The notes beneath the pieces are model-generated. The model saw nothing but the letters and a program-made list of their open reading frames with translations, did no database searches and was not told the DNA's origin. This document shows positions 13 to 45,100 of a DNA stretch of 64,000 nucleotides, one piece after another; position 1 is the first letter of the stretch; each line of letters starts with the position of its first letter. The position numbers were made by a program, and so were the translations under genes. The DNA comes from a virus. Where the stretch lies: positions 41,151 to 105,150 of IMG/VR virus record IMGVR_UViG_3300027917_000024. The stretch is one strand, 5' to 3'.

Positions 13-399
13 ATGAGCAAACGTAAACTTGAAGATATGTTTGCAGAAATTGATGAGCAAGAAGAAATCGAAAACATAGAAGAGCTAGTAAATGAGCTGT
101 GGGATGTATACCACCGGTTCTCGGAATTATCGCACAGAGTCATGAGAGTATTCAAAAGGTATATGCCAGGGAAGAATGAGCGTATCGGTTTGAGTAACTA
201 TATCCTCACACTCTTTGACAAGCATGAAAAACTGACTCGGCAGGATATCATGGAGTATCTCATAATAGGTGATTTTGAATATACAATATCTTCAAAAAGT
301 CTTACGGATAGCCTGTACTTTCTCTTAAAAACTAATAGGCTAATTCGGTACAAAGATCCATCAACTGGAGAGCATTGTTATAAAAGGGGGAATGGATAA
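13..399 (+). CDS. Hypothetical protein, winged-helix-like C-terminus
   Basis: Protein of 128 aa with a good Shine-Dalgarno site (AGGAGG at 3-8) before the ATG. The N-terminal half is acidic and helical. The C-terminal half (about residues 58-128) has the look of a winged helix: a helix around LTRQDIMEYL, a second helix around SLTDSLYFLL, and a likely wing at RYKDPSTGEHCYKRG. I recognise no specific family. Its stop codon overlaps the start of the DNA polymerase gene (TAATG), so the two are probably translationally coupled. This suggests, but does not show, a replication-related or regulatory role. The start of the operon lies outside the window. Confidence 0.75.
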   Translation: MSKRKLEDMFAEIDEQEEIENIEELVNELWDVYHRFSELSHRVMRVFKRYMPGKNERIGLSNYILTLFDKHEKLTRQDIMEYLIIGDFEYTISSKSLTDSLYFLLKTNRLIRYKDPSTGEHCYKRGNG

Positions 400-3272
400 T
401 GTCTGGTGTTTGTACTCTGTGTGGGCTATATAAAACTACAACGAATGTGAAAATCGATAGTGTTGTAGGTGAGATCAAGGCTACTGAGTGCAAAGAACCT
501 ATTGAGATAGCATTTATTGCGGAGGCCCCTGGAAAAGTCGAGGAGGAAAAAGGTATTCCTTTAGTGGGTCCTGCTGGAATGAACTTAGATACTGCTCTTA
601 AATCGGCAGAAATTGATAGGTCTCGTGTGTTCGTTGGTAATATCTGCCGCTGCAAGCCTCCTAATAATCGAACCCCAAGCAGAACTGAGCAGCAGAAATG
701 CTATCCCTATCTGTTAAAAGAGCTCAAAAAAGTCAAACCTAAAGTAATTGTGTGTTTAGGACTTGCAGCCACGAAGACTATTCTCAAAGACAGTACAATT
801 AGGATGAAAGATGCACATGGTAGAGCATATAGTGGTAAACCTCTTTTAGGCTTTGACTGTATCATTGTCCCTACTTGGCATCCCAGTCCTACAACTTTCA
901 TAAATAACGAAGATCGGCGATTCCAGATGATGGCTGACATTCGTATAGCTAAAAGCCATTTAGAGGGTGAATCATTAAAGGATAAAAAGGACTGGCTTTC
1001 AATCACTGTTGCAAATTATGAGACTTGGCTCTTGGTTCTTCCAATACTCAAGAAGGCAACCCATTTTACCATCGACGTGGAAACAACTGGACTGAATGTT
1101 TTTGCTAAAAATGCGGAAATCACAAATTTTGGAATAACATCCCATGGTAATTATGGTATTTCTGTTATTTGTAGAGAAGGAGATTGGATTAGAACAAACA
1201 AAGATGGAACTATCCACGACTATTTCAATGATTTTCTTACTGATCTCGAAGAGTTAATGGATACAATACCTACTGTTGCTCATAATATGTGCTTTGATGC
1301 CAAATACATGAAGAAAAAGTGGAACATCTGGCCAAAAAAATGGCTCTGGGATACGATGCTGGGCCACTCAATTATTAGCCCAGGAGGTTCTGCCAAACTA
1401 AAGGACATAAGTTGGCAATATACTCCTAAGATGGGAGGGTATGAACATGAATTGTTACAGGCTGGTGGGTTGGAGAAAGCAAATGCGTATGAGAGAGTAG
1501 ATTACAATGTTGGTGATATCGTTTGTACGGATCGGATATATAATAGGCAACTTGAGATCTTAGAAAAAGAGAAGAAGTTATTTCTTATGCAGAAGATTCT
1601 TATGCCAGCCGCTGAAATCTTCGCAGAGATGGAGTATATAGGAGTTGCTATTGATGAATATGTTCTTAGAAACCTAGAGAAAGACTATGGAAAACGACTG
1701 TTAGATGAAAAAACAAAAATATATATGCACGGTACTATAATGCAATATAACAGAACACACGGTGGCTTCAATCCCAGTTCAACAGATCAAGTTGGACAAG
1801 TGTTATTTGATAAGAAGTATTGTGGATTTACAGTCATAGACGTATCTGACAAAACCGGAAAACCATCCTGCTCCAAAAAAGTTCTTGTTGAGTTACAGAG
1901 GAAATATAACAGTAAACTTGTAAGTATGATTCTAGACTACCGTGCGCTGTTAAAGCTTCATAGTACCTATCTCAAGGGAATGAAATCACAGCTAATCAAT
2001 GGTCGGATACACACAAACTATCACCTAAACGTTGCGAGGTCAGGGCGTACAAGCTCGTGTGTTGCGGAGGGAACTTTGGTAGATGTTGTACGAGATTTAT
2101 CTAGGTATCCTAATGGTATTCCAATCGAAGATATACGCCCAGGAGATTATGTATACTGTTATGATAATAAATGTAACCTAACAATCAGGAAAGTAAAATG
2201 GGCAGGAAGGACTGGAAGAGAGAAAGTATTAAAACTAAAATGGATTGGTGCTGGTAGAAAGTTTTCGGGAGAATTGAAAGTAACTCCTGAGCATAAAATC
2301 CGCCATTCTGATGGACATTATATAGAAGCAATAGATTGTAAAGGAATAAATACTCTAGCACTTAGTAGAAGTTTGCGTAAATCTGGTAAAAGTAGGCTAT
2401 TAATTTTAGATGTGTTAGATGAAGGAGAGATGGTCGATGTTTATAATCTTGAAGTAGAAGAGTTTCACAACTTTATTGCTAATGGTATCTGTATAAAAAA
2501 TAGTGGACCCAACCTTCAAAATATACCCGAAGATAGTGATATAAAATCTATGTTTATTCCAGATGTGGGATTTAGATTTATTGATTTGGATTATCGGCAG
2601 ATGGAATTGGTTGTCTCTGCCTATTATACTGGTGATGAGGTTATGAAAAAGGCCATACTTTCTGGTGATGCTCATACATATATTGCAAAATTAATTTTTG
2701 GTATGGCAGAGGTAAGTGAAGATAATAGAAGGTTTGTAAAGACACTTAATTTTGGGGTTCTCTATGGAATGGGAGCTGGGAAGTTAGCAGAATCACTTGG
2801 TATAGAGGAAGACGATGCAAGAAGGCACATAAAAGAATATTTTAATATTTTGAAGGCTACAAAAACTTGGATAGATAGAAGGCGGTGGCATGCTGAACAT
2901 AAGGGATTTGTTACATCTAAATTTGGACGTATCAGGAAGTATAAAGCAAGGGAGGAAATTCTTCCAGGCGAGAAGGTTGAATATAACTCCGCTGTCAACC
3001 ACCCTATACAATCACTAGCATCTGATCTTATGCTCTACGCTATGGTACAATGGAAAAAGTATTTAGTAAAACGTGGTTTGTATCCACATGATGCTTACAT
3101 GGCATTACAGGTACACGACTCTATTGTTAGTTGTGTCAAAGAGCAACTAGTTGAAGAACTCCTTCTGGCTAAAAAGAACGTATTTGAGTCAATCAAGTTC
3201 GAATTTATGACATTACCGTTATCAGTAGAACTAAAAACAGGCCATGATTGGGGTAACTTATCGAAAACATAG
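399..3272 (+). CDS. polA: Family-A DNA polymerase fused to N-terminal family-4 uracil-DNA glycosylase, interrupted by a mini-intein
   Basis: The 957-aa precursor copies the phage genome. Residues 1-190 are a family-4 UDG: motif EAPG at 42-45, GPAG at 57-60, HPS at 161-163, and four Cys (5, 8, 85, 101) spaced like the 4Fe-4S ligands of this family. Residues about 220-375 are a DEDD 3'-5' exonuclease (D226/E228, N296/D300, Y369/D373). The polymerase domain follows: motif A DYRQME with catalytic D731, motif B RRFVKTLNFGVLYG, and motif C VHDS with D907. Motif C has Ser where this family usually has Glu. There is no 5' nuclease domain. An intein lies at residues 554-701; its removal rejoins the SGRTSS and SGPNLQNIP segments of a typical PolA. 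The ATG overlaps the previous stop (TAATG). Confidence 0.95.
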   Translation: MSGVCTLCGLYKTTTNVKIDSVVGEIKATECKEPIEIAFIAEAPGKVEEEKGIPLVGPAGMNLDTALKSAEIDRSRVFVGNICRCKPPNNRTPSRTEQQKCYPYLLKELKKVKPKVIVCLGLAATKTILKDSTIRMKDAHGRAYSGKPLLGFDCIIVPTWHPSPTTFINNEDRRFQMMADIRIAKSHLEGESLKDKKDWLSITVANYETWLLVLPILKKATHFTIDVETTGLNVFAKNAEITNFGITSHGNYGISVICREGDWIRTNKDGTIHDYFNDFLTDLEELMDTIPTVAHNMCFDAKYMKKKWNIWPKKWLWDTMLGHSIISPGGSAKLKDISWQYTPKMGGYEHELLQAGGLEKANAYERVDYNVGDIVCTDRIYNRQLEILEKEKKLFLMQKILMPAAEIFAEMEYIGVAIDEYVLRNLEKDYGKRLLDEKTKIYMHGTIMQYNRTHGGFNPSSTDQVGQVLFDKKYCGFTVIDVSDKTGKPSCSKKVLVELQRKYNSKLVSMILDYRALLKLHSTYLKGMKSQLINGRIHTNYHLNVARSGRTSSCVAEGTLVDVVRDLSRYPNGIPIEDIRPGDYVYCYDNKCNLTIRKVKWAGRTGREKVLKLKWIGAGRKFSGELKVTPEHKIRHSDGHYIEAIDCKGINTLALSRSLRKSGKSRLLILDVLDEGEMVDVYNLEVEEFHNFIANGICIKNSGPNLQNIPEDSDIKSMFIPDVGFRFIDLDYRQMELVVSAYYTGDEVMKKAILSGDAHTYIAKLIFGMAEVSEDNRRFVKTLNFGVLYGMGAGKLAESLGIEEDDARRHIKEYFNILKATKTWIDRRRWHAEHKGFVTSKFGRIRKYKAREEILPGEKVEYNSAVNHPIQSLASDLMLYAMVQWKKYLVKRGLYPHDAYMALQVHDSIVSCVKEQLVEELLLAKKNVFESIKFEFMTLPLSVELKTGHDWGNLSKT
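2058..2501 (+). other. Mini-intein in DNA polymerase (in-frame, no homing endonuclease)
   Basis: A 148-residue in-frame insertion between SGRTSS and SGPNLQNIPE, the conserved substrate-binding stretch of PolA. It starts with Cys (CVAEGTLVDVV), has a block-B-like VTPEHKI with the TxxH pattern, and block F/G as VYNLEVEEFHNFIANG followed by ICIKN. Ser is the +1 extein residue. The length only allows the Hint splicing fold, so no endonuclease domain is present. The penultimate residue is Lys where most inteins have His, which may slow Asn cyclisation. The UDG, exonuclease and polymerase motifs lie on both sides and appear intact, so the host protein is probably functional after splicing. Confidence 0.9.
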
Positions 3273-7478: not shown

Positions 7479-8660
7479 ATGCGAACAGAACATATAGATC
7501 TCGGTGACACAAATCAGATCATTCTTTTCTCTGATATACATTTCCACGAGTACAAACCATTCTCTAAACCTACGACAGATGGGATTGGTTCTAGGTTTCA
7601 ATGGATCTTACATGCAATGGATCTTATTTTCGAGTATGCCGTAGCAGAGAAGATAAAACATTTATTCTTTCTCGGCGATCTCTACCATCAGCGTACCCTC
7701 ATATATAGTGTCGTATTTGACAGGGTAGCAGCTTGTATCGAGAGGGCCAAAGAATCTGGATTGGAAATACATGCTATATTAGGGAACCATGACTATGTAT
7801 ATAATAATGACAATTCTCCTTCTATCGTAAAGAGAATTCGAGGGTTGGATGTTATAGATTCTCCTACTTTGTATCTTTTAAGAGATAGGGACGAGAAGAT
7901 AGGATGTATGCCCTTCCGATTCAAACTTCCACAACTAAGAGAGGATCTGAAGGAGCTGCGTGAAGCTATAGAGGATTTGCCACCACACCAAATTGATGCT
8001 GACCATTTACTTTTAGGGCATTTTGAGATAGATGGTGCCGCAGTGAATGATGAATATGTTCTGAGTGAAGTAATTGATAAAAGCGAATTTGAAGGAACTC
8101 ACTTTAAGTTTATATTGTCTGGTCATATACACAAACGTCAGGCTCTCGCTACTAATAATGGTCAAGTGATTGAATATATTGGTACTCCTTTACAGCACAC
8201 TTTTACAAATGAAGGATCCCCATACGGTTTTGTTGTTTATGATTTTGAAGGAGAAGCCAAGTCAAAACACATCGAACTGAGTGATATGGCCGATTTTCCA
8301 GAGTTTGTTACCTTGGAATTTCGTTCACAAGACGATGTAAAGGCAGCTATTCGTGATAAGAAAAATAGGTTTAACATTGACTATTACAGACTAAGAACTT
8401 ATGCAGATGATCTCAAATTAGAGAGTATATTCAAAAGGCTTCCTAACTATACTTTTGAACCAATGGGGGTGGAGACTAGCCAGAACACCGAATCTGAGGA
8501 GGATGAAGGTGCGCTTAAATTCAACTTAAATATTGGTCATTATTTAAGATTATTTGCAGAGCAGGAAGCGGGTACACAAACATTGGATTGGCTTGATATT
8601 AATCTGCTTGTGGAATATCTAATGAAAGTAGCAACAAAAGGAAATATATGTCTAGAGTAA
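7479..8660 (+). CDS. sbcD: SbcD/Mre11-like nuclease subunit (T4 gp47-like)
   Basis: Protein of 393 aa. It is the metallophosphoesterase subunit of a double-strand-break resection complex. The metal-binding motifs are all present: D19-x-H21 (FSDIH), GD at 66-67, GNHD at 102-105, LGHFE, and GHIH near residue 215. The C-terminal part would cap the nuclease and contact the ATPase subunit. It starts one base after the recA stop and overlaps the sbcC gene by 13 bases, the usual pairing. The complex would trim DNA ends to give single strands for RecA. Confidence 0.93.
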   Translation: MRTEHIDLGDTNQIILFSDIHFHEYKPFSKPTTDGIGSRFQWILHAMDLIFEYAVAEKIKHLFFLGDLYHQRTLIYSVVFDRVAACIERAKESGLEIHAILGNHDYVYNNDNSPSIVKRIRGLDVIDSPTLYLLRDRDEKIGCMPFRFKLPQLREDLKELREAIEDLPPHQIDADHLLLGHFEIDGAAVNDEYVLSEVIDKSEFEGTHFKFILSGHIHKRQALATNNGQVIEYIGTPLQHTFTNEGSPYGFVVYDFEGEAKSKHIELSDMADFPEFVTLEFRSQDDVKAAIRDKKNRFNIDYYRLRTYADDLKLESIFKRLPNYTFEPMGVETSQNTESEEDEGALKFNLNIGHYLRLFAEQEAGTQTLDWLDINLLVEYLMKVATKGNICLE

Positions 8661-24904: not shown

Positions 24905-27900
24905 CTAGTCACCGAAAGCGATACATCTCCATCGTCCATTTGGATATGTACCAGTATCAGTTTGGTGCTGTTTATAAAATAGTCGATACTTACTTGCCAG
25001 AAGATCTCCTCTTTTTCCCATAGAATCCGGCGGTCGTGAACCTGAGTAACTATAATCAGGTAGATTATTATAGGAACCAGAATGATCTCCAAAGTGTATA
25101 TGAGCACATTGTTCCTGTGGCATAACATGAGTGTCTAACCATATATCAACACCTATTGTCGTACTAGTACTATCTGTTGCCGTTACACCTAGCCCTTGAT
25201 ACCTAGAAGCAGTAAAGACGCCTCCTTTAAGGGTATTATCGGCATCATCTGAACCCGCTGACCCCATTACTCCTGTAGCAGTAGGAATTGTACCAGCACC
25301 ATTAGTATAAACCGACGCAAAGAAGTTTCCCCCAACGGAAATACCGTGATCACCGGCAGCAGCCCACCCTTCTACTCCAACAAGAATATTATTACTACCA
25401 AGATTTGTTACACCTGCTTGCATTCCGTGCATGAACTTAGATACACTTTCCTGCTCTACTTGTATTACTAGTCCTCGGTAAAAGTTGCCTTTTATTACCA
25501 TTCCATAGGAAGGTGTATCAGGCCAAACAGCGGTTACATCACAAGGAGATCTAATAAGAATTCCTGCACTATGGTCCTTAGCGGTATCTTTCATTGGGAC
25601 TACAAGTAACGATGCATATCCCCAATCTGTCCACGAATCAACAGGAACTTGACCATCATGATCAATAGTTACAGTGAAGTTTCTATCTGCAGAATCAGTA
25701 TTGAAATAATGTGCAGAATTAGACGTCTCGATAACTGTTATTGGAGTTTCGCCTCCAATCTGTGCTAATAGTTCCGGCGAATCTTCTGTTACTTGGTACA
25801 GCCCTTCTGTATCATACACATGAATTCCTGGCGAGTCTTCCCTAACCCAAGCATATGGAGGATCCTCTTCTTGTGTATAGGCCTGACCAACAAGAACTTC
25901 TCTAAAGTTCTGTATGTCCTTAACACGCAACTTACCACCAACCTCTAAGTGGCCAATCCACTCATCTAATGTTTTATCATACGCCCTGAAGAACCACAGA
26001 TACCCCTGATCTGCTAGTTCTTCACCCTCTAGTCTGGCACTTTTGATAAGCGGGTCTGTAGGAATATCTGGTAGCTGTGATTCAAGGCCTTCAATCCACG
26101 GCCTTCCTATCAAGAATTTTGTATCTGCTCCATATAAGCTCGGCCAGGTAGTTGTATACTCCCACCACTCTCTACCAAAATTGTCTCCGTGGGCTTCCAT
26201 CATACTTCTTTCATACACACTGCTTGGGCCGTCAATTACAATACGTGAGTGGCCTTTGTAATTATCACTTGCATTGTAACCAGTGTAGAGCCGCATATCA
26301 AAGTATGATGTCCAATACGGATTATGAATGACACCAGTAGTAATGTCATTATTTTTGATATAGGTTCCAGGTGAGGCAGCGACCATTCTGATTTCTACCT
26401 TGAACTGCCCAACATCACTCTGAATAATATCTAAAGGATCAACAAGGTTCCTACCATCGATAGCCTGTTCGCCTCCTCCTGTATGCATATTTCTTACGAT
26501 AGTTACTGAAAATAGAGGTATATTTCCTCTTCGTCTCAAATCTGAGAATGTGCCGTCATAATTGAAGTCTGCTACTGTTTCTGTTAAATCATACTGCTCA
26601 AACAATACCGATTCATGACTTCCAGCATTGATATACTCTACGTAGCCGACATGTATACTCCTCTTGACTGTCGTACCATCTGGAACTTCATTTGCAGCTT
26701 CGGTGAATAAATACTCACCAGCTGTAATATAAAACCCACTATCATTTGCAAATTCTATTCGACCATTAATCATTGGGTCGACACCATCATGAACGCCTTG
26801 GTACTCTCCAGATTTATGCCACTTGATTCTTACATATTCATCCGGTTCTATACTATCATCAAATAGGCGAGTTACCTGGAGATCTACAGTGTATGGAAGA
26901 GCTCCGATCTGAATTGATCTGGCTCGAATGGAGTTAGTTAGAATCATTCCTCCATTGATATACGTATATTCTTTGTTATGGGAAGGATCTTGGCCGTAGA
27001 TAGCAAAAATACGTGAGATAGCAAATTCTGATATAGTATATGCACATCCACCAGGAGCTGTAGCTACTCCTATAGGGCAATTGCCTGTTTTGTAATATCC
27101 TATTGGAGGCTCCTCGTCTTCCGTCCAACCGTGATATTTACAGTAGCTCCCACAATCCCACACACAATGATCTTTGAACGGTTGCCACGGATACGCACCA
27201 GCATAATCTCCAATCCATACTTTCTCAGCTGAAAGATGCTTGACCTTTGCATTATTGATCATAGCATCGCCAATTTTAGCTGTAGTAATAGCTGCGTCTG
27301 CGATGTGCATACGATCAATCAATTCAAAGTCAGCAGCTTTCCATATAAGATTCCCAAGTTCATCTACATACCAGAGCCTTCTTCCCTGTGTCGTTCGAAC
27401 AGCCAGAGTAACAAAATACCGATTATAATTTATTCCCTCTTTAGTCCTGTCACTATCTGCTGCAGCATCTGGTGTATAGTATGAATTCACATAACAGCAG
27501 CTCAAGGTTGGATCGGCTGGACCATACGGGCAATTCCCTGTATTTATATCATTGTTTGGAGAGGCGTGGCATCCCATAGCACAACTGTCATAGGTCGTAC
27601 CGGACGGATGCGTAACAACGGAGAAGTGTGTGCAGATACCTCCTTCATTGGATACACCCGCATTTGTCCAATGGAATATGGGTCCCTCTGTTGAGCCTAG
27701 GAAAAAGTATGAATCACCAAGATCATCTACGTTTACAAGTCTCAAGTGCCCATCAACTGTACGTTCGAATTCGCCGTAGCTTTTGACATTGCTATCCCCA
27801 GAAGTTTTCAGAGCCATAAATTCAGTTACTGGATTGGCTTCCCATGTACTGGTAGTGAAATTCCATTGTCGTAAGCAAGCATATACTTCATAGGATTTTA

Positions 27901-30900
27901 TTCGCTCATCTTGCCAGTACTCATCCCAGTTATCGATTACAACTTGTATTTGACTTCCATTGGCAAGAGATGCGACGCTCCAGTTTACTTCGATCTGATC
28001 TGCTAAATATTCGGCTGTCTCTTTGATAACTTGAACATCATTGCAGTAAAGCCCCGTACCAACATCTCCTACGTCTGACCATAGTTTTAGAGATACGTCT
28101 ATTTCCTTTTCTGGAACAATACCCATAATATCTGTAGTATAATACCCACCCAGTACTTTTGTATCATCTACGGGTTCGTTATATTCTCTTGTAAGAAGCC
28201 CATCCGCTCTAAAGATTTTAAATTCATAATGGGAGAGGCGATTTACCTGAGCAGAGGCAGGATCGGGATGTTGCCATTTTGCATGGGCTACAGTAGAGAG
28301 CCCACTGTCCCATATTCCACCTATATTTGTATAAGCTAACTCTGCCCAAATATTTATGGTACACATCTGACCGACCTGAGGAACACCGTCTGCTGCCTCA
28401 TACCCATAATTTGCAAGTTCTGCTGGGCTTGGAATGCCTACTCGAATACACCATCTTGACAACGCAGTACTGTAATAAATAGCTGTTACGTCATTGTTGG
28501 AGTTAAGGCTGCTTCCTGTCACATAGCAGTATCCATCTAGATCTTCATCTGTATTATAATAGAAAAGGTCATTGTGATAGTTCATTGCAAGATAGGCGGC
28601 TTCAGGATCTCCAGGGTCTTCTACTTTCTCGAACCCAAAATCATTCTCCAAATCAGCTGTCACCCGTACTTCATAATATCCAGCTTGTACATCGACTGAA
28701 TCAATGGTCATACTGCCAGTCATACCTTGCGGGACTGGTGGTGGATAGGGTACTTGTGTGACGCCTTGTACTGTGACCGAGATTGTTGTACTCTTGTATG
28801 AGCTCCGAGGCGTTCCTACTCCAAAACAATCATAAGGAATAATATAAACAATATAAGTACCTGCCGTCAGACCTGTAATTTTATACTTTGCTTCTGTTTC
28901 TCCTTCAGTAAATGGAACATCAATACTTGTCATGTCCCCTATACTTTCTCCATACCATATCTCAAAACCTAGAATATCGGTGGAAAATAATACGGGGTCA
29001 TTTACATATTGCGACCAATCTACAAGTATACTTCCTGATGTGGGACTTGTGATGGTAGGTATATATCCACTCATAGAAGGAGCGAGATTTTCTAATGGAA
29101 GCTCCGATGGTTCACATGAGATATTTCCGTCAGCGTCTACTTGATAAACCCTGAACAACAGATCTCTTTGGCCCTTCCCTACTCTAGCAAAGACATTATA
29201 CTGATCTTCCTTATTCATATCATGGGTGTATTCAAATTCTGTATCTTTTGTACCAACCTCCCTTATAAATTGTGGCATGTCTCCTGCGTTATCAAAGATC
29301 CAAACCTGATAGCCTGTGATATTGTAGCTCTCACTTACTCCCGCTCGTTCTACTCCAGCTTCAACTTCAATTCCTTGCCCTGCTCCTTCGAATGTTGCTG
29401 ATTGTGTCCAAGATACGCATACATCACATCCAACAAAATTGAGGACCCCATCTCCTTGCCCACAGATAGAAAGGTGACTAGGAGAAGGAATACACTCTTC
29501 AATACCCATTTTGAATTCAATGGTAGGTGGATTGAGTCCTTTAGTACCTGTAGTTGCAACACTCTCTGCCCTAATGTAATAAGTTTGCATAGGGCTCAAT
29601 GACCTAATTATAAATCCCTTCCCTTTAGAATAATCGTTTCCTTGATGTGTGAAATTCCTTTGATCCGTACTAAGATAAACTTCGACATGGTTGATTTGCA
29701 GATATGTACCTGATCTTTTTTGTATAATGAAATCGTCAGTAGCGGGAGCACCAATAAATGTTTCCCTTTCTACGTAAGTAAATGTGTTCTCTGCTTTATT
29801 CAAAACATTTATTATCAACTGCCCTTTATAATTCCCTGTCGTACCATCATAGACAAATATATTTCTAGTACTTACCAATTGAGAATCACTAGCTTCTACG
29901 TAAACAATAGTGTCCCCCCCTGAGACCGACAGAATTTTAGACGAAAACAGAGGAGTTTCACTAGTAGGTACGGTATATGTTATGGTTGCGTCATATGTCC
30001 CGAAGATTTGAGTCGCCGCCAGGTCTGTAACATCAGCTGGAGCGTGAATTGTATCAACAGGTTTTATTGGAGGAAGTTGCGGTGTAATTCTGACACTATA
30101 GTCTGCATAAATATCTTCGTCGTAAGGCTCACATTGCACGACGATGTCTTCTTTATTAACATCTCTAGCTATTCTTATAATTCTGCGCTTCTTGATATAT
30201 GTCTCAGCAGCTACTCCTGTAACTGTAAGCATCCAAGTATCATGAACTGCATAATTAGGAGAAATTGTTTCTGCAATCGTAATCTCATCAACCTCGTCAG
30301 AAGCACCAGCAGTAAATTGATATTCATCAGGATCACTAGGAAGTCCTGCATCTGCTCCCGTTCTCCTTGCAATTTTGAATATGTACGTTTGACCAGATGT
30401 AAGAGGAACTGTTGTATCAAGATAAAAGGTTGTACTTCCTCCACCCGTAGATGATTCTAACCTGAAAAACCCGCCATAAACGTATGTAACTGTAGAATGT
30501 TGGATACCTACAACATCACCAGGAACAGATGCTAAAGCTGCCATTGTAGATTTAAATTCAATTACTTTATTGGAAACTGATGCATAATTTAACAGATAAC
30601 TTGCTGCTCGTAGTGCTTGACTTTGTTTTGATACACCAACTAGACTAACAGACTGCTTCTTGATCTGTCCTAGATGATGTTCTGCATCTTTTAAGCTAAC
30701 CTGTAAATTTTTCTGTTTTCCTCTTTCGCCGTAGCCTTGATCATAATAACTAACTTCTAGGGTATTTGGAATTTTGGAATCAGGAAGATAAGTTTCTTTG
30801 TATGTATTAGGTATTATATCTGCATCAGTAAAAATCTGCGTCATGTTTTCAGGTTTCATTACCTTAAGGCGTAATTTACTTCCAATCCAATACAACCTAC

Positions 30901-33241
30901 CACGCATCAACGCAACTAACTGATTAAGTATCTGAGAAGCATCAGTAGTAGTATCTATAACAATATCTGCTTGGAATCTTCGTTCCTGTGAAATACTGTG
31001 AACGTCCGTACCTATTAACTCCCAGCATATTTCCGCAGCTTCAATAAAGTCAGACCAAACCAAATCGGATTCTTCTATATTGGGGTAAAGGTCTTGAGTA
31101 GTAAGAAGATCATAAATAATAAAAGGAATACAATTTGTATACTCAAGGAGCGTATTAGTTGTATCAATGGTTAGTGCTGCGTCTCCTACTTGATATTTCC
31201 AATCGTATGATTCCGTACCTCCATTCCATTCGGTGTATGAAGATTGGAACGGGACAATATTACCGGAAGTGTCACGTAAGATAGGTACCTTTACATATCT
31301 TCCTTTAACTGGAATGTTAAAATTAGGTATGCTACCAGATAACTTCTCCGAAGGAAGGATACGTAATGCTATTGTTGATGTGTTAGGATGGAGAGTTCTA
31401 GAGAAAGAAAATTCTTGGATGCGTATGACTTTAGATTCTGACCACCCATCCCTAATACTAGTTATTACTTTATTCTTTCTAATTACTTGTATTCGATACT
31501 TTGCAGGAACTAGTGTTTCCCCCCCAAAACCGGCAGAAACAGTAATTTTAAATTCGCCAACTGTAGATTGTCTGACTCTCAAAAATGGGTCATCTCTATT
31601 CTTCTCTTTATCTGTCTCACCATGTATATACTCCCACCTACTCGTGTCAGGAGTATCCCCATCAAAGGGACAATAACGAATCCAGAAATCAGCATTTCTA
31701 CCTCCCTGATTTCCCTCGTCTACCTGATATAGTCCTCCAGGGAATTGAAGAATAATATTAAACCCTTCAACAGATGGACTTACAGTGTCAAACTCAAATT
31801 CGTTTTCTAATGGCTCTATACTAGATTTAGTTTCAGTCCGATCCAGCATAAAATCAAACTCACTTATATGTATGAGCTTGGTACCAAATAAATCAATGAC
31901 ACCAGATCCACCAGGAGTTTCAAGGAGGGGTACATTATAACCATGCGTAGCTTGAACATGGACAGTTTTAGCTAATCCCCGGTCGAACTCTACTTGCCCA
32001 TCGTACACTGTTGTATCAAACGCATCTAATCTAAGGTCATCAATGTAAACACTCTCAAGCTCAATGTCATTTATAATCCCGTCAGATAGTCCTAGTACAA
32101 CTTGTAATGCTTCTTCTTCCTGATACATCTCACTTTCATTGATAATTGCAGTTATTGGACCTTTTCCAAGAAATTGTAGATCAACGAGGTTAGGCCTACA
32201 CCATTTCTCGGCATGAAAACCGCCGTACTCTCCTTCGGAGTAATAGACACGCATCCCGCAGTAGAATTCATAATAAATCTTGCCAGCGTCGTTAGTCAAA
32301 TCACATGCTACTTCACAATAACTGTACTTACTATAGACCATATCAAAGTCATCTCCCTCTGGACCTCTACCAAAATAAGTAGTGTCTTGATGTGCCCATT
32401 CAGGTAGTGGGTCTACAGGGTTACCGGCAGTATTTACAGTTCTTGCGTAAACGTAACTACTTATCTGCCACGATCTACCAGGCCAGCTATCTAGATTAGC
32501 TTTGCGGTCAAAATAGAATCTAATCCTCTCATATCTATACTCAGGACGTAAACTAAATGTGATTCCAGGTGGGTTACCGACACTAGGCGCAGAATTCTCA
32601 CAAGTATCCCAATCATATCCAGTAGGAATACCAAAATCCGAGAGGTGTGGGAAAGACCACCAATCTTCCTCACCATAGGCAATCCCAAGTCCAACAATTT
32701 GAGCGCTTAAAATGTCTCCAGCCGTCCATGCCTTGCCATATATAAGAGGAATCGGTCTGCCAATAGCGTATGTAGTCTGCGGCCCGTCCCAAGTATACGT
32801 TTCAGATTTTTCTATGTCTCCACCAGACACAAAAGGATCTGTAGTAGGCATTAGCATATAGGATAAATAACCTATACCTGCCATGATAATAATATTGGCA
32901 GCAGCTGCTAACGTAAAACCAACAATTTTACCAAGGAGCATTGACCCTAAAATTCCTGCTGGAAAAGCGATGGCGGGGATTTTTGGAAAGAATACTAAAT
33001 TAATCTCATCTCCATTATCGACTATAGTATCACGGAAGTTTTCATTTGGAATTAGGTGGAGATTCAGCATTACCCTAAGATTACTATGGCGAGCTAGTAC
33101 ACCAATATCTACTTGCCTAAGTCGGAGATATTCCAACATATCATTAATGTATTGATCAAGAGTTTTATCTCTCACATATCCTGATTGTAGACAGGCAAAA
33201 TTTTCTTCGAAGGCATTTATTTTGGCAGTAATTTTAATCAT
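24905..33241 (-). CDS. Fused I/J-like tail-tip protein (central fibre)
   Basis: Protein of 2778 aa. Residues 1-88 look like the beta-grasp of lambda gpI (ending NGDEINLVFFPKI), followed by a hydrophobic Gly/Ala-rich stretch at 90-130, as in gpI. From about residue 150 (YTWDGPQTTYAIGRPIPLIYGK) it is J-like. FN3-type repeats (PADVTDLAAT, then others) follow in the middle. Two Cys-rich segments (about 1870-1925 and 2020-2070) each hold a TGNCP motif. The last 150 residues are fibre-like. As the tail-tip hub it would contact the receptor and start DNA ejection. The stop of the K-like gene overlaps its ATG. Confidence 0.85.
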   Translation of the reverse strand: MIKITAKINAFEENFACLQSGYVRDKTLDQYINDMLEYLRLRQVDIGVLARHSNLRVMLNLHLIPNENFRDTIVDNGDEINLVFFPKIPAIAFPAGILGSMLLGKIVGFTLAAAANIIIMAGIGYLSYMLMPTTDPFVSGGDIEKSETYTWDGPQTTYAIGRPIPLIYGKAWTAGDILSAQIVGLGIAYGEEDWWSFPHLSDFGIPTGYDWDTCENSAPSVGNPPGITFSLRPEYRYERIRFYFDRKANLDSWPGRSWQISSYVYARTVNTAGNPVDPLPEWAHQDTTYFGRGPEGDDFDMVYSKYSYCEVACDLTNDAGKIYYEFYCGMRVYYSEGEYGGFHAEKWCRPNLVDLQFLGKGPITAIINESEMYQEEEALQVVLGLSDGIINDIELESVYIDDLRLDAFDTTVYDGQVEFDRGLAKTVHVQATHGYNVPLLETPGGSGVIDLFGTKLIHISEFDFMLDRTETKSSIEPLENEFEFDTVSPSVEGFNIILQFPGGLYQVDEGNQGGRNADFWIRYCPFDGDTPDTSRWEYIHGETDKEKNRDDPFLRVRQSTVGEFKITVSAGFGGETLVPAKYRIQVIRKNKVITSIRDGWSESKVIRIQEFSFSRTLHPNTSTIALRILPSEKLSGSIPNFNIPVKGRYVKVPILRDTSGNIVPFQSSYTEWNGGTESYDWKYQVGDAALTIDTTNTLLEYTNCIPFIIYDLLTTQDLYPNIEESDLVWSDFIEAAEICWELIGTDVHSISQERRFQADIVIDTTTDASQILNQLVALMRGRLYWIGSKLRLKVMKPENMTQIFTDADIIPNTYKETYLPDSKIPNTLEVSYYDQGYGERGKQKNLQVSLKDAEHHLGQIKKQSVSLVGVSKQSQALRAASYLLNYASVSNKVIEFKSTMAALASVPGDVVGIQHSTVTYVYGGFFRLESSTGGGSTTFYLDTTVPLTSGQTYIFKIARRTGADAGLPSDPDEYQFTAGASDEVDEITIAETISPNYAVHDTWMLTVTGVAAETYIKKRRIIRIARDVNKEDIVVQCEPYDEDIYADYSVRITPQLPPIKPVDTIHAPADVTDLAATQIFGTYDATITYTVPTSETPLFSSKILSVSGGDTIVYVEASDSQLVSTRNIFVYDGTTGNYKGQLIINVLNKAENTFTYVERETFIGAPATDDFIIQKRSGTYLQINHVEVYLSTDQRNFTHQGNDYSKGKGFIIRSLSPMQTYYIRAESVATTGTKGLNPPTIEFKMGIEECIPSPSHLSICGQGDGVLNFVGCDVCVSWTQSATFEGAGQGIEVEAGVERAGVSESYNITGYQVWIFDNAGDMPQFIREVGTKDTEFEYTHDMNKEDQYNVFARVGKGQRDLLFRVYQVDADGNISCEPSELPLENLAPSMSGYIPTITSPTSGSILVDWSQYVNDPVLFSTDILGFEIWYGESIGDMTSIDVPFTEGETEAKYKITGLTAGTYIVYIIPYDCFGVGTPRSSYKSTTISVTVQGVTQVPYPPPVPQGMTGSMTIDSVDVQAGYYEVRVTADLENDFGFEKVEDPGDPEAAYLAMNYHNDLFYYNTDEDLDGYCYVTGSSLNSNNDVTAIYYSTALSRWCIRVGIPSPAELANYGYEAADGVPQVGQMCTINIWAELAYTNIGGIWDSGLSTVAHAKWQHPDPASAQVNRLSHYEFKIFRADGLLTREYNEPVDDTKVLGGYYTTDIMGIVPEKEIDVSLKLWSDVGDVGTGLYCNDVQVIKETAEYLADQIEVNWSVASLANGSQIQVVIDNWDEYWQDERIKSYEVYACLRQWNFTTSTWEANPVTEFMALKTSGDSNVKSYGEFERTVDGHLRLVNVDDLGDSYFFLGSTEGPIFHWTNAGVSNEGGICTHFSVVTHPSGTTYDSCAMGCHASPNNDINTGNCPYGPADPTLSCCYVNSYYTPDAAADSDRTKEGINYNRYFVTLAVRTTQGRRLWYVDELGNLIWKAADFELIDRMHIADAAITTAKIGDAMINNAKVKHLSAEKVWIGDYAGAYPWQPFKDHCVWDCGSYCKYHGWTEDEEPPIGYYKTGNCPIGVATAPGGCAYTISEFAISRIFAIYGQDPSHNKEYTYINGGMILTNSIRARSIQIGALPYTVDLQVTRLFDDSIEPDEYVRIKWHKSGEYQGVHDGVDPMINGRIEFANDSGFYITAGEYLFTEAANEVPDGTTVKRSIHVGYVEYINAGSHESVLFEQYDLTETVADFNYDGTFSDLRRRGNIPLFSVTIVRNMHTGGGEQAIDGRNLVDPLDIIQSDVGQFKVEIRMVAASPGTYIKNNDITTGVIHNPYWTSYFDMRLYTGYNASDNYKGHSRIVIDGPSSVYERSMMEAHGDNFGREWWEYTTTWPSLYGADTKFLIGRPWIEGLESQLPDIPTDPLIKSARLEGEELADQGYLWFFRAYDKTLDEWIGHLEVGGKLRVKDIQNFREVLVGQAYTQEEDPPYAWVREDSPGIHVYDTEGLYQVTEDSPELLAQIGGETPITVIETSNSAHYFNTDSADRNFTVTIDHDGQVPVDSWTDWGYASLLVVPMKDTAKDHSAGILIRSPCDVTAVWPDTPSYGMVIKGNFYRGLVIQVEQESVSKFMHGMQAGVTNLGSNNILVGVEGWAAAGDHGISVGGNFFASVYTNGAGTIPTATGVMGSAGSDDADNTLKGGVFTASRYQGLGVTATDSTSTTIGVDIWLDTHVMPQEQCAHIHFGDHSGSYNNLPDYSYSGSRPPDSMGKRGDLLASKYRLFYKQHQTDTGTYPNGRWRCIAFGD

Positions 33242-36124: not shown

Positions 36125-39100
36125 TTACCTCTTTATAGACCTGATAATCTGGTAAATCGGTCCACGAGATGCGATATCCTCATTGATTACATTTATTATG
36201 GCCTCTGGATGTTGTAGCATAATAGAAGGTATCATCTTTGGATCCATTAGATTAATAACCTTTATGTCCTGTGTTCGTCCTCCTTCTCCAGTAAATGTAA
36301 CGGGTATGCTTCTGTTATCAGGAAGTGGAACAACAGCTTCAGACTGTCCACCTTCTCCAATGACACCAAGAGTAGGTCCACCAGCAATTCCCCCTGACTG
36401 GAAGAATGTGGCTTTTAATGTTTGCAAGAGTGTTGTCTGCTCCTTCGTAAAAGGTCTAATACCACCTTCAATAATTCCACCTTTGGCAACCCGAACTGGC
36501 TCAAGTTGTAGCCATCGAGTTCCTATTGGACCGCCCTTAGCAGGTTGTTTACCAAATAGTCCTCCTAGACTACTTAGGATATTTACTATGATTAGCCGTG
36601 CAATAATATCTGCAAGAGCATCCAATAGAGTCTGAGCAAATTTCTTAAACGCTTCTCCTACCCGCCTTGATGTACTCTCTAGTTTGTCTAATTCGCCCCG
36701 TGCTTTTGCTATCTCCTTTTGAACCTCTTTCCACTGCTGTGTAAGTTCTAAGTGCTCTGCGGCCTCTTCTGGCAGTACAAGTCCAACTTCAATTAGATCC
36801 ATCTCCCTTTTAATCCTAGCTGCTTCTTCTTCTAGCTCTCTCAACTCTCCTGACATATTTTCAATTTCTTGCTTCGGTGGTCTAAAGATTGCATTCCAGG
36901 TATCTACAATTGCTGTGTTGAGTCCTTCCAGTACTGTATTAGCCAGTCCTTTCCATACCTCGAAGAAATCTGTTGCTTGTCGCTGAAAATCCCACAGAGC
37001 ATCGACCATTCCTAGTAGTGCTCTGTCCCACGCACTCCCCGTATATTTTGCTAGTTCGGCTAAAGACTGCCCTGATCTAAGAGCCATATCAATAGCTTGT
37101 GCCCAATTTTGATAGTTAATTCTTTGATTTAGAGCAGCCTCATCCGCAGCCTGTATCAGTATACCCTGGTCTTTTAGTGCATTCAGTACATCTTTTCGTG
37201 CTTTTCCCTCACCTATGATTTGATTAATTATTTTATCTTGCTTTATTAGCTGTTCGTCAAGAGCTTCTGCCTCGCCTTCTTTGTATGTTACTGATTTATC
37301 TTCAAGTTTAGCTTTTCGTTCGACTAATAATTCGTATTCTCTTGCCGCCGCAACTAATTCATCGTACTTATCTTTTTCTTTTATGCGATCAATTATTCCT
37401 TTCTTCCCATCCTCAACAGCCTTTTTTGTCTTTTCTACCTTCTCTCTAAGAGGTACCATTTCCGCTTCTGCTTCTAGTCGTACCTGCCTTTGAAGTTCTA
37501 TCATATCTTTCAATCTTTCCTTCTGGTCTTCGGCTTTTCCTACGAGCTGATCTTGCCACTGGAATATATTACTTACTTCAACTCCTGCTGCTTTAAGAGC
37601 TGGAATATCAATATCCATTCGAAGTACCGGTGCAGTCGCTTCAATTTCTTGCAGAGAAGTTTCTAACATTTCTCGTATTGCGTCCCTGGCTTGAGTCTTT
37701 GTGCGCTCAATAGTTTCAAGATAGCTTTTCCGCATAAGATCTTCAAATATTATTCGGTAGGTTGCGTATTTTGCCCTAACGTCTCCGGTTCCTTCCCTCA
37801 ATGCCTTATCTAGTTTTTCTACAAATTCTTCTTTGACATTATAGCTAAACTCGTTAATTGATTCGAGTATGTCACTTTCCCATTCTTTAATAGAACCAAG
37901 ATCAACATCACCTACTAAAAACTGAGCTTCGACTTTAACTTTGGCACGTTCTAGTTGCTCCTGTGCTATTTGCTGTACCCTTTGGATACTCTTGATGGCA
38001 AAATCTGCAAGTTCCCGTGGTTCTATTAACAAGAGTTCAGCATGTTTTCCTGCGAGATCCCTTATTGTTGCTTCATATTGAACTTTTAGTTGTTCAGTAT
38101 AATTCTGAAACTGCCGAAGGGAAGCTGTATTTCTAAGCTTGGCCCCCTTGTCTATCTCTGCTAGAGCCTGTTGAAGTTCCGTTTCTTCCTCCTTTAGTAC
38201 ATCTACATTTCCCTGTATAGCCGCTTTCTGAAGTTCATACCTCTTCTCAAAATACTTTTGAGCCCAAGGAACTCCCTTCGCTCCTGCTATTTTCTCATCA
38301 ATCTCCTTCATTTTATTTGCGTAGTTTTCCTTCTCGGCTAGAATTTGTGTCTGTCTCGCTTTCATATTAGCAATTGCCTCTTCTTCAGCTTTTGTATAAG
38401 GAGGTTCGTATGATTCAATTCTTTTAATTGCCTCGTTTGTTTCGGTAATCTGTTTAACTAGGCCACTTTTTAAACGCTTGTAATTTTCTATCGTTTCCTG
38501 TATACGGTTTCTTTGATCTACATTGAATTTTTCTTGTATTTTAAGGCGCTCCTGCATCAGATTTAGGTATTGTTGTGGAGACATTACTGAGTCAAATGTA
38601 GCCACAAATTTATCTAATTCTTCTAATTCTCTTTTTCTTAGAGCTGCCATATCATTATAGAATTGTTCACTAGCTTCTAATCTTGCATGATTATTCTCAG
38701 TTTCTTTCTGGAATAGGATTTGATCTTCTTGAAGTTTTGCAGTTTGATATTGAACATTACTATCTAAATCCTCGCCTCTAATTTTGTCCATAATAATTCC
38801 AAGTTGCTGATTGTCATGATATCGATTGAGCTGTAAGTCGTATAGCTTATCCTGTGTTGATTTCATTGTAGTGAATGTTTTCTGTTCTATGGTTGCTATA
38901 GTCTTATCAAAATTAAAGCCTAATTTTTCATAATCTTTAAATAAAGTTTGAAACCAAAGTAGTGCGACCTCATGTGTCCATCCATAGTGTCTTCGAAGTT
39001 CTTCAATAATTTCATTTAAAAACTTTGCCTGATCACTGTCTATATTCTTTATGAGTTTTTTAAAGGCTTCTACCAGAAGTCTTTCATCCTCCGCTAGAAA

Positions 39101-42100
39101 TTCTTGAATATCCCCTATGTTTTGTTTGAATATGGCTTCTAATGTTTCTGGCTGCTTTCCTATAAGTAAGGTTGAAAAGTCCTCACGCACTTCTTGCAGT
39201 ACTTCAAGCTTCCGTCCCATTTCTTCAATTACCTGATTTGCCTCATCTACTTTCTCATTGAAAAATTCTATCCGTTTTGTCAGTTTATCGAATTCCTGCT
39301 GGCTTTCTTCTTGGACGGAAAGTTCTCTTGCAGCTTTGATTTTTGTTTCGGCAGTAATTAATTGTTCGGCATATTTTAATTCAATATCCCGTTGTTTAGT
39401 AAGTAGATCTAGATTTCTTTGTATATGAATTGATCTTTCAGAGCCCATCTCAGATATAGTTTTGGACAGATATTTACGGCTCTCATCCATTAATTTCTTC
39501 TCTGTCTCATAAAAGTCTTTTGATATTAATTTTATCTTGTTGTAATACTCCTGAAATTTCTGAGCTCTAATTTGTTCTCTTACTCCAGGTGTGGCAATTA
39601 TACCTAACTCTGCTATTGCTAGATTAATCTCATTTACCGTATTTTTTGCTTCTCTAACCATTTCGAGCCGTTCTACCACTGTAGCTTGTGCCATCATTTT
39701 TCTTGCGTGGGCAGGTAAAGCGGCCATAACTTGCCGGATAACATTTTGGTTACGTTCTAGATGTTCTCTTACAACATTTGTTCCGTGCGCAGAAATCCGT
39801 GAAATTGTTCCGAACATTCGTTCATAGGCAGCTTCTAAATCATTAACATTATCTACCATATCTACTATTTGTTTTGCCATGGCTAATCCAGCATCGCCAA
39901 GAACTTTTTTCTGCTTCTCCCCAATTTTTTCGAAGTCTTTTATTAGATTTTTTGCTTCCTTACTCGATACATCCATTCCACCTCTAAGCAATTGTTCAAA
40001 TTTTTCTATGTTTATTCCTGCTCTTTTTAAATGCTCTCTCGACAAACTTCCCATTCTACCATAATAAATTCGTAGACGGGCTTCGATAGAGCGTTGTTCT
40101 TGTTCACTTGCACCTTGAAGGGATCTCATGAGCTCTATCATTCGTTGCAATGTATTGTAATAGTACGCTGCTGAAACGTCACTGAATTTTTTTTGATGCT
40201 CATCAAATGCGGCTGTATAAGATGAAAGCTCCGCTCTTAGTTTGTCTATGTCACTGGCACCTTCTGACAGTAGTTTTTTTCTAGCTACTAGATTGCGCTG
40301 TTGTATTTCACGGAGATCTGCATCCATTTCTACTAGAGTTGCTTTTAGTGTTGCTGGTGTTTCCTTTTCAAATTTATCTACAAATGTTGAAGCTTCTGCT
40401 ATAGCGTCAGTAAGAGCCTTTTTAGTAGCATCCGGCGCAAGAGCCGCAAAAGGAGAAAGCAAAGGTCGTTGGAGCCTTGTGCGAAGAGCGGCATATTCAG
40501 TTTCTATATCAGCAAATGCCGTTTCTTTCTCTATTTCTTTTTCTATATCTTTTACCATTTTCCTAACATCTTCTCGCCCTATTTCAACACCAATTTTTAT
40601 ATTATAATCTTTGAATATATCCTGAATCTCTGGAGGAAGATCACGAATAACCCTAAGTAGCTCACTGTTGGCAACTTGACCTGCGTCACCTACTCCTAAT
40701 AGTAATTCTTTCAATCTTTGTAGCGTAAATACTGGCTCTTCAAGTCTTTTGAATTGTAACCAAATAAGGTTAACATCTTTAGGGAGTTCTTTGCCCTGTA
40801 TTATCAGTTCAGTAAATCCTTTAGCAAGATCCACTACATTTTTTCGAAATTTCTCAAGCCCAGTTGTGGATTCAAGCTCCCTGCCAAGAGCATTAGCTCC
40901 ATCATATAAACCATACATTTTTCTCGTAACAGAGGAAAGTCGTATTTCCAGCTCTCTTAATTGCTTAGCTTCTTTTTCTTCTAACTTTTCCAATCGTTCT
41001 AATAGTTCTATTCTTTTCTGGGTAAGTTCTGTCCATTTTGCAATAGATTTTTCTATTTCTCCTGTTGTTGCAAGCTCTGCATCTAAATAAGCTAATATAC
41101 CAGGATACTGTAGTTTTAACCTTTCTCGTACCCTTAACCATTTTTCGGTATAAGGAATTGTAGTACGATATTCTTCTGCTAATTCACGTAACGCTTGTTG
41201 TTCTGCTTCAATAGCGTCAAGTGTTTCTAAGTATGCTTCTCTTGCCTTTTCCAGTTCTGTGTTTGCAGTTCTCAGTGCTTCCTCTTGTTTTTTATACGCC
41301 TTATATAGCAGATACCCTGCAAATACTACAGCAGCAATCGCCAATCCTATCTTATTTAGACCCATCCAGAAGCCAGTAAGGGCGGCTTTAAGTGCAGTAA
41401 GTGACGTGACAGTAGCCCATATACTTTTTGTAGTTTTGGCCATTGCTGCTGGAACGAGTATGGTAAAAGTTTGCTTAAAATCAAAAGCTACACCCTGAAC
41501 CGCCTTTTCAGTAAGATCCATTTGTCCAGTAAGAGATCTGAAATATAATATAAGAGCAGTGACAGGTTTTGACAGTGCTTCAAGAGCCTTACTACTAGTA
41601 GCAATTCTTTTCATTAAAAGTAGTTTACCCATTCCTCTTAATATTCCATACACGACTGCTATTTGTACTGCCAATCGTTTTAAAGTATCAGGAAGCCAAG
41701 ATAATGTGTCTCCTGCCGCATTCAAAACCCATACAAGACCTTTAAGCAAGCTAACTACTGGTTCGATAGCATCTTTACCTAACAATTTGAATCTAGCTAC
41801 AAGTATTTTGACTTGTTGAGCAAAAGTTTCAATCTTGAGTTTTGCCATGGATTCTGCCAGATTGTCAAATTTACCAGTTTGCAGGGCGGCAACTGTTTTA
41901 TTTAGTTCATCTAAATTTGTAATAAGTCCTACCGCAGCTCTTTTCCCAACCTGTCCGAATATATCTTGAAGTTTATCGAATTGTATGGTCGTAAGCTGTC
42001 CTTGATACATACCTCTTTCTAGTGCTGCATTTAATTTGGTAAGAACATCAACTAGATCTAAGGGTTTTGTAAAATCAATATCAATGCTGAACGCTTTTGC

Positions 42101-45100
42101 CAGTTCCTTGGCATTAGATGTAAGTTGTGTTAGAACTCTTGATGCTGACCTACCAGCTTTGGATCCTAAAAGTAATCTGTTGTTTAGCACAGACAAAACA
42201 CCTAAAACCTGTTCAAATGATAATCCAGCCGCATCTGCCTCGTTGATCATATAACCTAGACCAGCAATTAACCCGTTCATATCAACCTGGGATTGATTAA
42301 GTGTTGCAGCTAAACGGTCATTGATATATCTGAATTTATCTGATGCATCCCCTGCTTTTGCTACTTGATCTCCAAAAACTCTAAACAATCCAGCTGTAAT
42401 TCTAGTTGCTTCGCCAATCTCCAATTCTGCTGCTAGTGCTAGATTGGTGACATGACTAACACCTGCCATTGCTTCTTTCATTGAAAGGCCAGCAGAGATC
42501 AATTCCCACATGATAGTGGCTAGATCTTCTACAGCTGATCCAGTCCGTATCATCTCACTTCTTAATCTACTCATAATTTCAACGGATTTGGCTGATACAT
42601 TATACTCTGCAGCGATTGCGGTTGTAACACGAGCTACCTGTGTTTCTAGTTCTGCATAAAATTTTACAAGATCTCTTACACCACGAGTAAACCTAAAAAT
42701 GATATTCTGGGTTGCGTACCATCTGATCTGAACAAGTATTAGACTTTTTATGTCGGAGATAAGAGTGTTGACCATCTGGGTAACACCTTTATATCGTCCC
42801 TGTAATTTATTTACTTGGGTCGATAAATTTTGTGCTTCTTTTGCTAATTCTTCGTAGGCTTTTGCTTGTTCTCTTGTACCGTCCTTACTCTTATCCATTA
42901 TAGTATTGTATAACTGTTGAAGCTTAACATTCCTACCCGTTTCTGAAGCTAGTTTGAAAAGTAACCCTGGATGTCCCCTTCTTAATTGTAATTCCTCTTG
43001 CAATTTTTGTATGTATTGTCCCTCTACAACTATTTGATCTTGTAGAAATCGTGCTGCTTCTTCTCGTGGTGCTTTCTCTAGTTTCATGGCTTTAATTACG
43101 GCCTCAATTCTTTTCTGTCGGGCCTCAGCAATATTTTCACCCTTTTTTTCTTGTTCGCCGTATAGTTCAAGCTGTTCTCTTGCTTCTCTTAATTCTTGTG
43201 ATTTTTTTGCATCCAGTCCTTCTATTTTCATTTTTGGTTCAAACTCTTCGAATTTCTCTCCCGTTTCTGTCATAAGCCTTTCTACTTCCCTAACGGCATT
43301 TTCTCTTAAGCTTACAATTACCTTTTCTACTTCTTCTAGTTTTTTTGTTTTTAGTTCTAGAGGTACTCCGCTTAATTTTTCCATCTCTTGCCTCAACAAA
43401 CGAACAAGATCCCTCGCTTCAACAAATTGTTTCTTGTCTTTGAGTTCTTTGACACGTTCAAGCATAGTTCTGGCTTTATCAAGAGCCTGAATCTCTGTTA
43501 TATATTTATTCATGCCATCTATATTGGTTGATAAGATTTGTGCGAATTGTCGTTCGGCATTTCCAAGATTCTGTGTACGTCCGGTTACTGCTCCAACAGT
43601 ATCACCAAGATCGGATATCACCTTCTTAAATCCACTTACTCGATTTGTAACTGCTTCGTACCCTCTACCTATAGCAACTAATCCGGCTTGTCCTTTGGTT
43701 ATTCCTTTCTGTATTTGTACAATATCAATGAATTGCTGTTTTAGTACCTCTATAGTTTGACCAAGAGAAATCATCCGTGCTCTTTCTTCTTCAAGTATTA
43801 CTCCTTGTTTCATAAGATCTTGGTATATTTTATATTGTGCTGATAAATTCTGTAGAGATGCTCCACCACGATCCTGAGCTCCAATGAGTATTTCTAATCT
43901 CTCTCTCATCACTTCGATATCTCTTCCCGTTTTTTCAACTTCCACTCCGATTGCCAATTTTTTCTGCCCTTCTGCAGATAATTGCTGTAACTTCTCCCGA
44001 ACAATATCAATTCTAGAACCTACTTTTCCCAATGCGTCTTCAAGTATCTTTATTACAGTTTTGAGATCTAAGCCTTCAAGCTTACTTGTATCAATCTCTA
44101 TATCAGTGAACAGTTTTATGGCTGCAGCTAATCCCTCAATCTGTGCTTTTGTTTGAGTCAGTTCTTTATCGCCCAGTCCAATTTTCTTGTCTTGAACTGA
44201 CCGTAACTGATGGAGTACACTGCCTAGAGATTCATACAAGAATTTTAATTGCTCTACCCTTCGAATCCTCAAATTAATGTTTTCTACCATTATCTTTTCT
44301 TTTGCTTCTTCTTCGGTGGCCTGTTGTGCTGTCGCACCGGTCATGATAGCTAATGATTGGATAAGGCCATCCATATGTTGTTTGAATACTTTCAACTTCG
44401 CATTAATAATTTCATATTTCTCTCCTACAGTTCCTAATTTTGCTGCTGATTGGGCAATATCTAACTCAGCCACGTTCTTGGACTGCTGAGATAAAGTTTT
44501 CATTGCGGCCTGGACATCTTTCAAATGCTTAACCTGAGCCGCTGATGCTACTCCTTGGACTTGTAATTGTTGAAGAAGACTCATCTCCTTCTTCAATGAA
44601 CTTGCCGTCACTCCTGTAACCATCATTTCTCTTTGTAGTTTTTCTAACTCTTTTTGTAGCTTAGGAATGCTATCAGCAGCCTTTTCGATTCCATCATCTA
44701 AATTTATTTCTTTCTCCATTTCCGTAAATAGTTTATGAACTGCTTCAAGTGCCGGATCAACCCCTTCCTTAACTAATCTACCTAATTCTTCAACCAATGC
44801 TTTGAGGACTTTGGGTTCCCGTAACTGTTCAACATAAGTAAAACTTTTAATCATATCCCGAGTGTTTGAATTTAGGGCTGAAAGGGCTTTATCTAGTGCT
44901 TTAAAGCTATCTTCACTTATTCCCACCTTACTTTTCATTTGTCCAAGAACGATATTAGCACTATTAATTGCTGCTCTCATCCTATGTATATCAGGAGGTA
45001 TACCAGCCACAATCTCATCCATCTTCGAGAATGTATCAACCATTTTCTGGCCGGTTGCATCTACTCCTATACCGAGATTTCCAATAATTCCTGCGACACT

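Follow-up and report, generated by a model that had tools for sequence, protein, structure and literature searches.

A putative class 1 mini-intein with two exchanged helper residues in a phage UDG-exonuclease-PolA precursor

In well-studied inteins, Asp at position F:4 serves steps 1 and 2 of splicing, while the penultimate His (G:6) serves step 3 (PMC7765530). The F:4 Asp is usual rather than obligatory, being present in about 60% of inteins (PMC7765530). Some 5% of functional inteins have a residue other than His at G:6, and restoring His helps some of them and harms others (PMC4031507). Among mycobacteriophage inteins, penultimate Gly, Lys or Ser has already been described (PMC5050341). 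In that study the native RDF intein of phage Bethlehem (penultimate Gly) was fully spliced at time zero, whereas its His mutant was about half spliced only after more than 5 h, and the authors suggested that loss of His may speed the production of functional protein (PMC5050341). The intein analyzed here resembles these mycobacteriophage class 1 inteins in being a phage intein without the penultimate His. However, theirs reside in other host genes, such as RDF, and the Bethlehem intein differs further in its G:6 Gly and in carrying an endonuclease. In the literature accessible to us, no paper with the phrase 'polA intein' was found.

The intein lies in a 64,000-nucleotide stretch of viral DNA (the window), which corresponds to positions 41,151 to 105,150 of the IMG/VR record IMGVR_UViG_3300027917_000024 (105,150 bases). 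The precursor ORF (399-3272, plus strand, as are all its features given below) codes for 957 residues. According to profile matches, it combines, from the N- to the C-terminus, a family-4 uracil-DNA glycosylase (UDG), a 3'-5' exonuclease and a family A DNA polymerase (PolA) that is interrupted by the insert. The N-extein (residues 1-553, 399-2057) ends with SGRTSS, and the C-extein (residues 702-957, 2502-3269) starts with S(+1)GPNLQNIP. Between them is an insert of 148 residues (554-701, 2058-2501), which begins with CVAEGT and ends with GICIKN, followed by S. In the alignment with Taq polymerase (phmmer/HMMER), the match breaks off at S553 and resumes at about K700/N701, the polymerase proper continuing with the S of SGPNLQNIP and zero polymerase residues lost, and the flanks of the insert join without a gap on the Taq polymerase segment RLSSSDPNLQNIP. 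This gap-free alignment shows that the boundaries are correct, as are the lengths of 957 residues for the precursor and 809 for the spliced protein. The initial annotation had arrived at the same coordinates and lengths, and the ORF and the Taq alignment bear them out. A second IMG/VR record is 100% identical to the window DNA across 7,269 bp; therefore, an assembly error at the insert is unlikely, although the same or a linked sample may underlie both records.

The insert matches TIGR01443, the intein C-terminal splicing region, with 26.9 bits (curated cut-off 15.6), whereas the weaker matches to Pfam Intein_splicing and PT-HINT fall below their cut-offs. The N-terminal nucleophile Cys1 (2058-2060) and, in block B T76-P-E-H79 (2283-2294), T76 and H79 are invariant in a 24-row family alignment. 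Block F, VYNLEVEEFHNF, contains His137 at F:13 (2466-2468), and the intein ends with I-K-N before Ser+1, the terminal Asn being Asn148 (2499-2501). Thus the earlier description of a mini-intein with Cys1, TxxH, block F and Asn-Ser ends agrees with the residues found and with the TIGR01443 score. Its observation that the end is IKN rather than HN is likewise confirmed, G:6 being Lys147 (aaa, 2496-2498). A further helper change had gone unremarked: F:4 is Asn130 here (aat, 2445-2447), in contrast to the Asp of the relatives with HNH and of the remaining mini relatives of the His type.

An AlphaFold2 model, computed with the 24-row family alignment as input, has a HINT-type fold with a mean pLDDT of 91.5. 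Its best PDB match is the splicing domain of the Mtu RecA intein (3ifj; Z 21.6 with an rmsd of 1.6 over 135 residues), followed among solved structures by the NrdJ-1, Ssp DnaB and Npu DnaB inteins. For these four, Z is about 20-21.6, and the matches cover residues 1-148. The Mtu RecA domain shares the HINT fold but only 25% identity with the window intein, and it has both the F:4 Asp and the penultimate His. Judged by its residues, the insert is a class 1 mini-intein: Cys1, TxxH, the F:13 His, the terminal Asn and Ser+1 are present together with the HINT fold, and its in-frame removal restores the polymerase. The F:4 Asp and the penultimate His, usual in class 1, are absent, yet neither is defining. 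A class 3 intein, which has no nucleophile at position 1 but a Trp-Cys-Thr triplet with Cys at F:4, was rejected because Cys1 is present and F:4 is not Cys. A BIL or pretoxin HINT domain was ruled out, as polymerase halves flank the insert on both sides. The initial annotation had also considered that the insert might belong to a normal polymerase family; this is excluded, since its homology is to inteins and not to polymerases. No HNH or LAGLIDADG match was found within the 148 residues, so the insert does not qualify as a homing intein.

Searches of viral and genome contigs placed 24 distinct inteins in the same PolA loop, including the window intein and L096 (described below). The other 22 without exception show Asp at F:4 and an HN end, with Ser or Cys as the next residue. 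An HNH-type motif is present in 17 of the 22 (243-365 aa); the remaining five (L023, L024, L032, L068 and L069) are mini forms of 147-156 aa that keep both helper residues. Identity of the same-loop relatives to the window intein is 37-52%, and most of them have the HNH motif and VHN before Ser. Of three relatives examined for Pfam HNH_3, L007 exceeded the cut-off, L010 scored under it and L008 gave no match. Using tblastn, we found same-loop inteins in two named phages, Rhodobacter phage RcKickapoo (OP009274) and Dulem virus 38 (PP511596), with lengths of 321 and 258 aa, respectively; that of RcKickapoo, an isolated phage, has VHN at its end.

The HNH-bearing PolA inteins (L007-L010, L012, L025-L031, L033-L041, RcKickapoo and Dulem virus 38) share with the window intein the host gene and loop, Cys1, a TPEH-type block B and Asn-Ser ends, at no more than 52% splicing-domain identity. 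All but that of Dulem virus 38 also share Cys at position -4. They differ in having the F:4 Asp, the penultimate His and the HNH motif, and most are inserted two codons upstream. The five His-type mini-inteins are like the window intein in size, in loop and in having no HNH, but they retain the F:4 Asp and VHN. With its two exchanged helper residues, the window intein forms with its standard HNH-bearing relatives a clean contrast for the roles of F:4 Asp and G:6 His and for a possible mutual compensation of their changes.

As the zero point for the insertion register we took the conserved Arg of R-x-x-x-x-x-P in the spliced protein. Insertion occurs after R+1 in most relatives, after R+2 in a few and after R+3 in the window and Dulem virus 38; therefore, the PolA intein family spans three neighboring registers. 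The insert had originally been placed 'exactly' in the PolA site; the loop is indeed the same, but the exactness does not hold, as most relatives are inserted one or two codons upstream. Most HNH-bearing members use R+1, and five of the seven mini members use R+2 or R+3. In family A polymerases, this Ser-rich insertion loop contacts the primer-template.

When Lys-type ends were sought with a sequence pattern, another PolA mini-intein whose penultimate residue is Lys came up, L096 (IMGVR_UViG_3300038475_000107; 146 aa). Like the window intein, it is a mini form in the PolA loop with Cys at -4. Unlike it, L096 has Cys at both F:4 and +1, is inserted one codon upstream and is only 37% identical. 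The two group together with support of 72/86, L096 being on a long branch, and with these values their penultimate Lys may or may not stem from common descent.

Since the relatives keep the penultimate His and F:4 Asp, most of them along with the HNH motif, the window intein appears to be a derived mini form. On the parsimonious reading of the sequences, loss of HNH and replacement of F:4 Asp and G:6 His would have occurred on its own line. The mini-inteins L032, L068 and L069 form a clade of their own (support 98/95), a grouping that points to more than one loss of HNH. A search for an empty site, with the spliced C-extein as the query, returned only the same virus and no close intein-free relative, and the phage collection searched with the intein alone gave two distant matches. 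Recent acquisition is not supported by codon use, since the codon score of the intein falls within the extein range; its GC content (34.5%) is slightly low.

The homology, the boundaries, the rejoined frame, the predicted fold and the residue changes relative to the relatives form the basis of the explanation we favor. Very probably, this is a functional class 1 mini-intein of HNH-bearing ancestry that excises from the UDG-exonuclease-PolA precursor with two helper residues exchanged. Cys1 would form the thioester at SGRTSS, the N-extein would be passed to Ser+1, Asn148 would cyclize, and ligation of SGRTSS to SGPNLQNIP would yield the 809-residue polymerase. Cyclization of Asn would probably be assisted by His137 of block F and local geometry rather than by Lys147. 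The presumed ancestors would be larger same-loop PolA inteins with an HNH homing endonuclease, from which HNH was lost, F:4 changed from Asp to Asn and G:6 from His to Lys. Because the insertion is within a conserved polymerase motif, the precursor should have no activity before splicing, and active polymerase would depend on splicing. The intact frame also argues for splicing, which we infer to be fast enough for replication.

However, both helper positions have changed together, and given their roles in other inteins (PMC7765530) the window intein might be impaired; its lineage is represented by one sequence only. It could be a decaying, splicing-poor element, in which the helper residues drift after loss of the endonuclease and part of the precursor cleaves at one junction. 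Such decay would be in line with the loss of HNH and two helper changes on a single branch and with the behavior of the Mtu RecA intein, in which mutations of F:4 Asp uncouple C-terminal cleavage. Nevertheless, the frame is open, the nucleophiles and TxxH are all retained, the HINT model is of high confidence (pLDDT 91.5) and codon use stays inside the extein range. Moreover, since the phage presumably depends on the host protein, one would expect selection against an intein that fails. We therefore regard decay as very improbable.

The initial annotation had proposed that without the penultimate His splicing may become slow or conditional, making the polymerase a post-translational switch. 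Lys147, together with Asn130, would then delay splicing or tie it to conditions, and polymerase activity would set in after translation, at the proper time. Within the same PolA loop, the window intein and L096, whose F:4 residue is a different one, are the only members with both helpers replaced. Conditional splicing also has a precedent among inteins of other replication proteins, such as mycobacterial DnaB (PMC6195587), and the invariant Cys145 near the intein end could conceivably pair with Cys1 in a redox-sensitive manner. Yet slow or conditional splicing cannot be predicted from the loss of His, because its effect differs among inteins: the direction varies (PMC4031507), and in the phage intein with Gly it was the His mutant that was slow while the native form spliced completely (PMC5050341). 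The sequence, in which no signal is marked, lends the proposal no support. A lytic phage would also gain little from a delayed polymerase. We consider such a switch quite improbable. The window intein is of an ordinary kind with known variation, and the specific regulatory claim is unsupported. Small and of natural origin, it sits in a key enzyme of the phage and would carry greater weight only if its splicing were regulated.

If redox gating exists in this family at all, Cys145 (2490-2492) is a better candidate for it than Lys147. Distinct PolA family members have Cys as the fourth residue from the intein end in 24 of 24 cases, although the Cys145 motif helped to find three of these, which come from genome contigs (the viral ones were not found in this way). 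The equivalent Cys is present in 3 and absent from 129 of 132 other His-type phage inteins among the matches listed. Given strand alternation, Cys145 is expected to lie on the same face as residue 147. Its invariance is a new lead. A bolder idea is that the F:4/G:6 pairs of PolA mini-inteins (Asn/Lys in the window intein, Cys/Lys in L096) were rebuilt into another catalytic arrangement that, together with Cys145, ties the release of active polymerase to the state of the cell, e.g. redox; this seems to us very improbable.

It might also be argued that phage inteins have repeatedly arrived at a functional pairing of a non-Asp F:4 residue with Lys at G:6, as opposed to losing the two helpers independently; this would be compatible with the functional mini-intein favored above. 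In IMG/VR, the pattern HNF...G...KN matched 18 stretches (10 distinct), and the pattern HNFxANGxx[VI]HN, the His arm, gave at least 120 rows. Among the matches listed, F:4 is not Asp in 5 of 10 distinct KN-ended inteins (3 Asn, 2 Cys) compared with 7 of 134 HN-ended ones (Fisher p 3e-4; 0.002 without the window intein), and the Asn/Lys pair is present in three different host ORFs. However, significance is gone after collapsing at 60% identity (p 0.15), the His arm covers only the matches listed, and the test was picked after the window had been seen. In addition, F:4 Asn occurs mostly with His: the 18 distinct inteins with F:4 Asn have His in 13 cases, Lys in 3 and Ser in 2 at G:6. This weak co-occurrence is suggestive, a new lead rather than a result, and a coordinated pair seems rather unlikely. 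One instance of the F:4 Asn and G:6 Lys pair in another host gene is a 1377-aa ORF (L047, L049-L051; DTYNMNVEEFHNFVANGVIVKN before C).

The genes downstream of polA in the window make up a replication and recombination block of the kind usual in phages. They code for a gp32-like protein, for RecA, for a metallophosphoesterase and for a probable SbcC-like ATPase, the last named from its AAA_23 match and its neighbor. Other than the domains within the remaining inteins, no HNH or LAGLIDADG endonucleases that could act in trans were found near polA; one HNH_3 ORF lies about 33 kb upstream (8196-8309 of the full record, minus strand). Upstream of the window the same record codes for three more inteins, all with LAGLIDADG_3 and all HN-ended, so that the PolA intein alone is mini and without the penultimate His in this virus. 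With these three (L018, G000:C1:30000-44500), a single phage record holds four inteins. The ribonucleotide reductase intein ends with VVHN before C and the primase-helicase intein with INHN before T. The SF2 helicase intein begins with HSLDTPIL after GKG and ends with VTHN before T; having no Cys1 but a Cys in block F, it is class 3-like.

Very long ORFs of 2778, 3936 and 2477 aa occupy 24905-33241, 36125-47935 and 56245-63678 of the window, respectively, all on the minus strand. Additional inteins were also observed elsewhere. The PolA ORF of L008/L004 contains a second, later intein (CLQGDVKVF...GVIHKN before SAFHC) with penultimate Lys and F:4 Thr. The PolA of L032 probably has two inteins as well, since residues 499-529 of its ORF correspond to the C-terminal end of a second one (VYDIEVATVHNFALAAGVIVHN before C). 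Finally, seven loci (L043, L044, L046, L055, L057, L061 and L065) have inteins in uracil-DNA glycosylase-like phage proteins, with a common insertion inside GEAPG and S(T/K)ED directly behind the intein.
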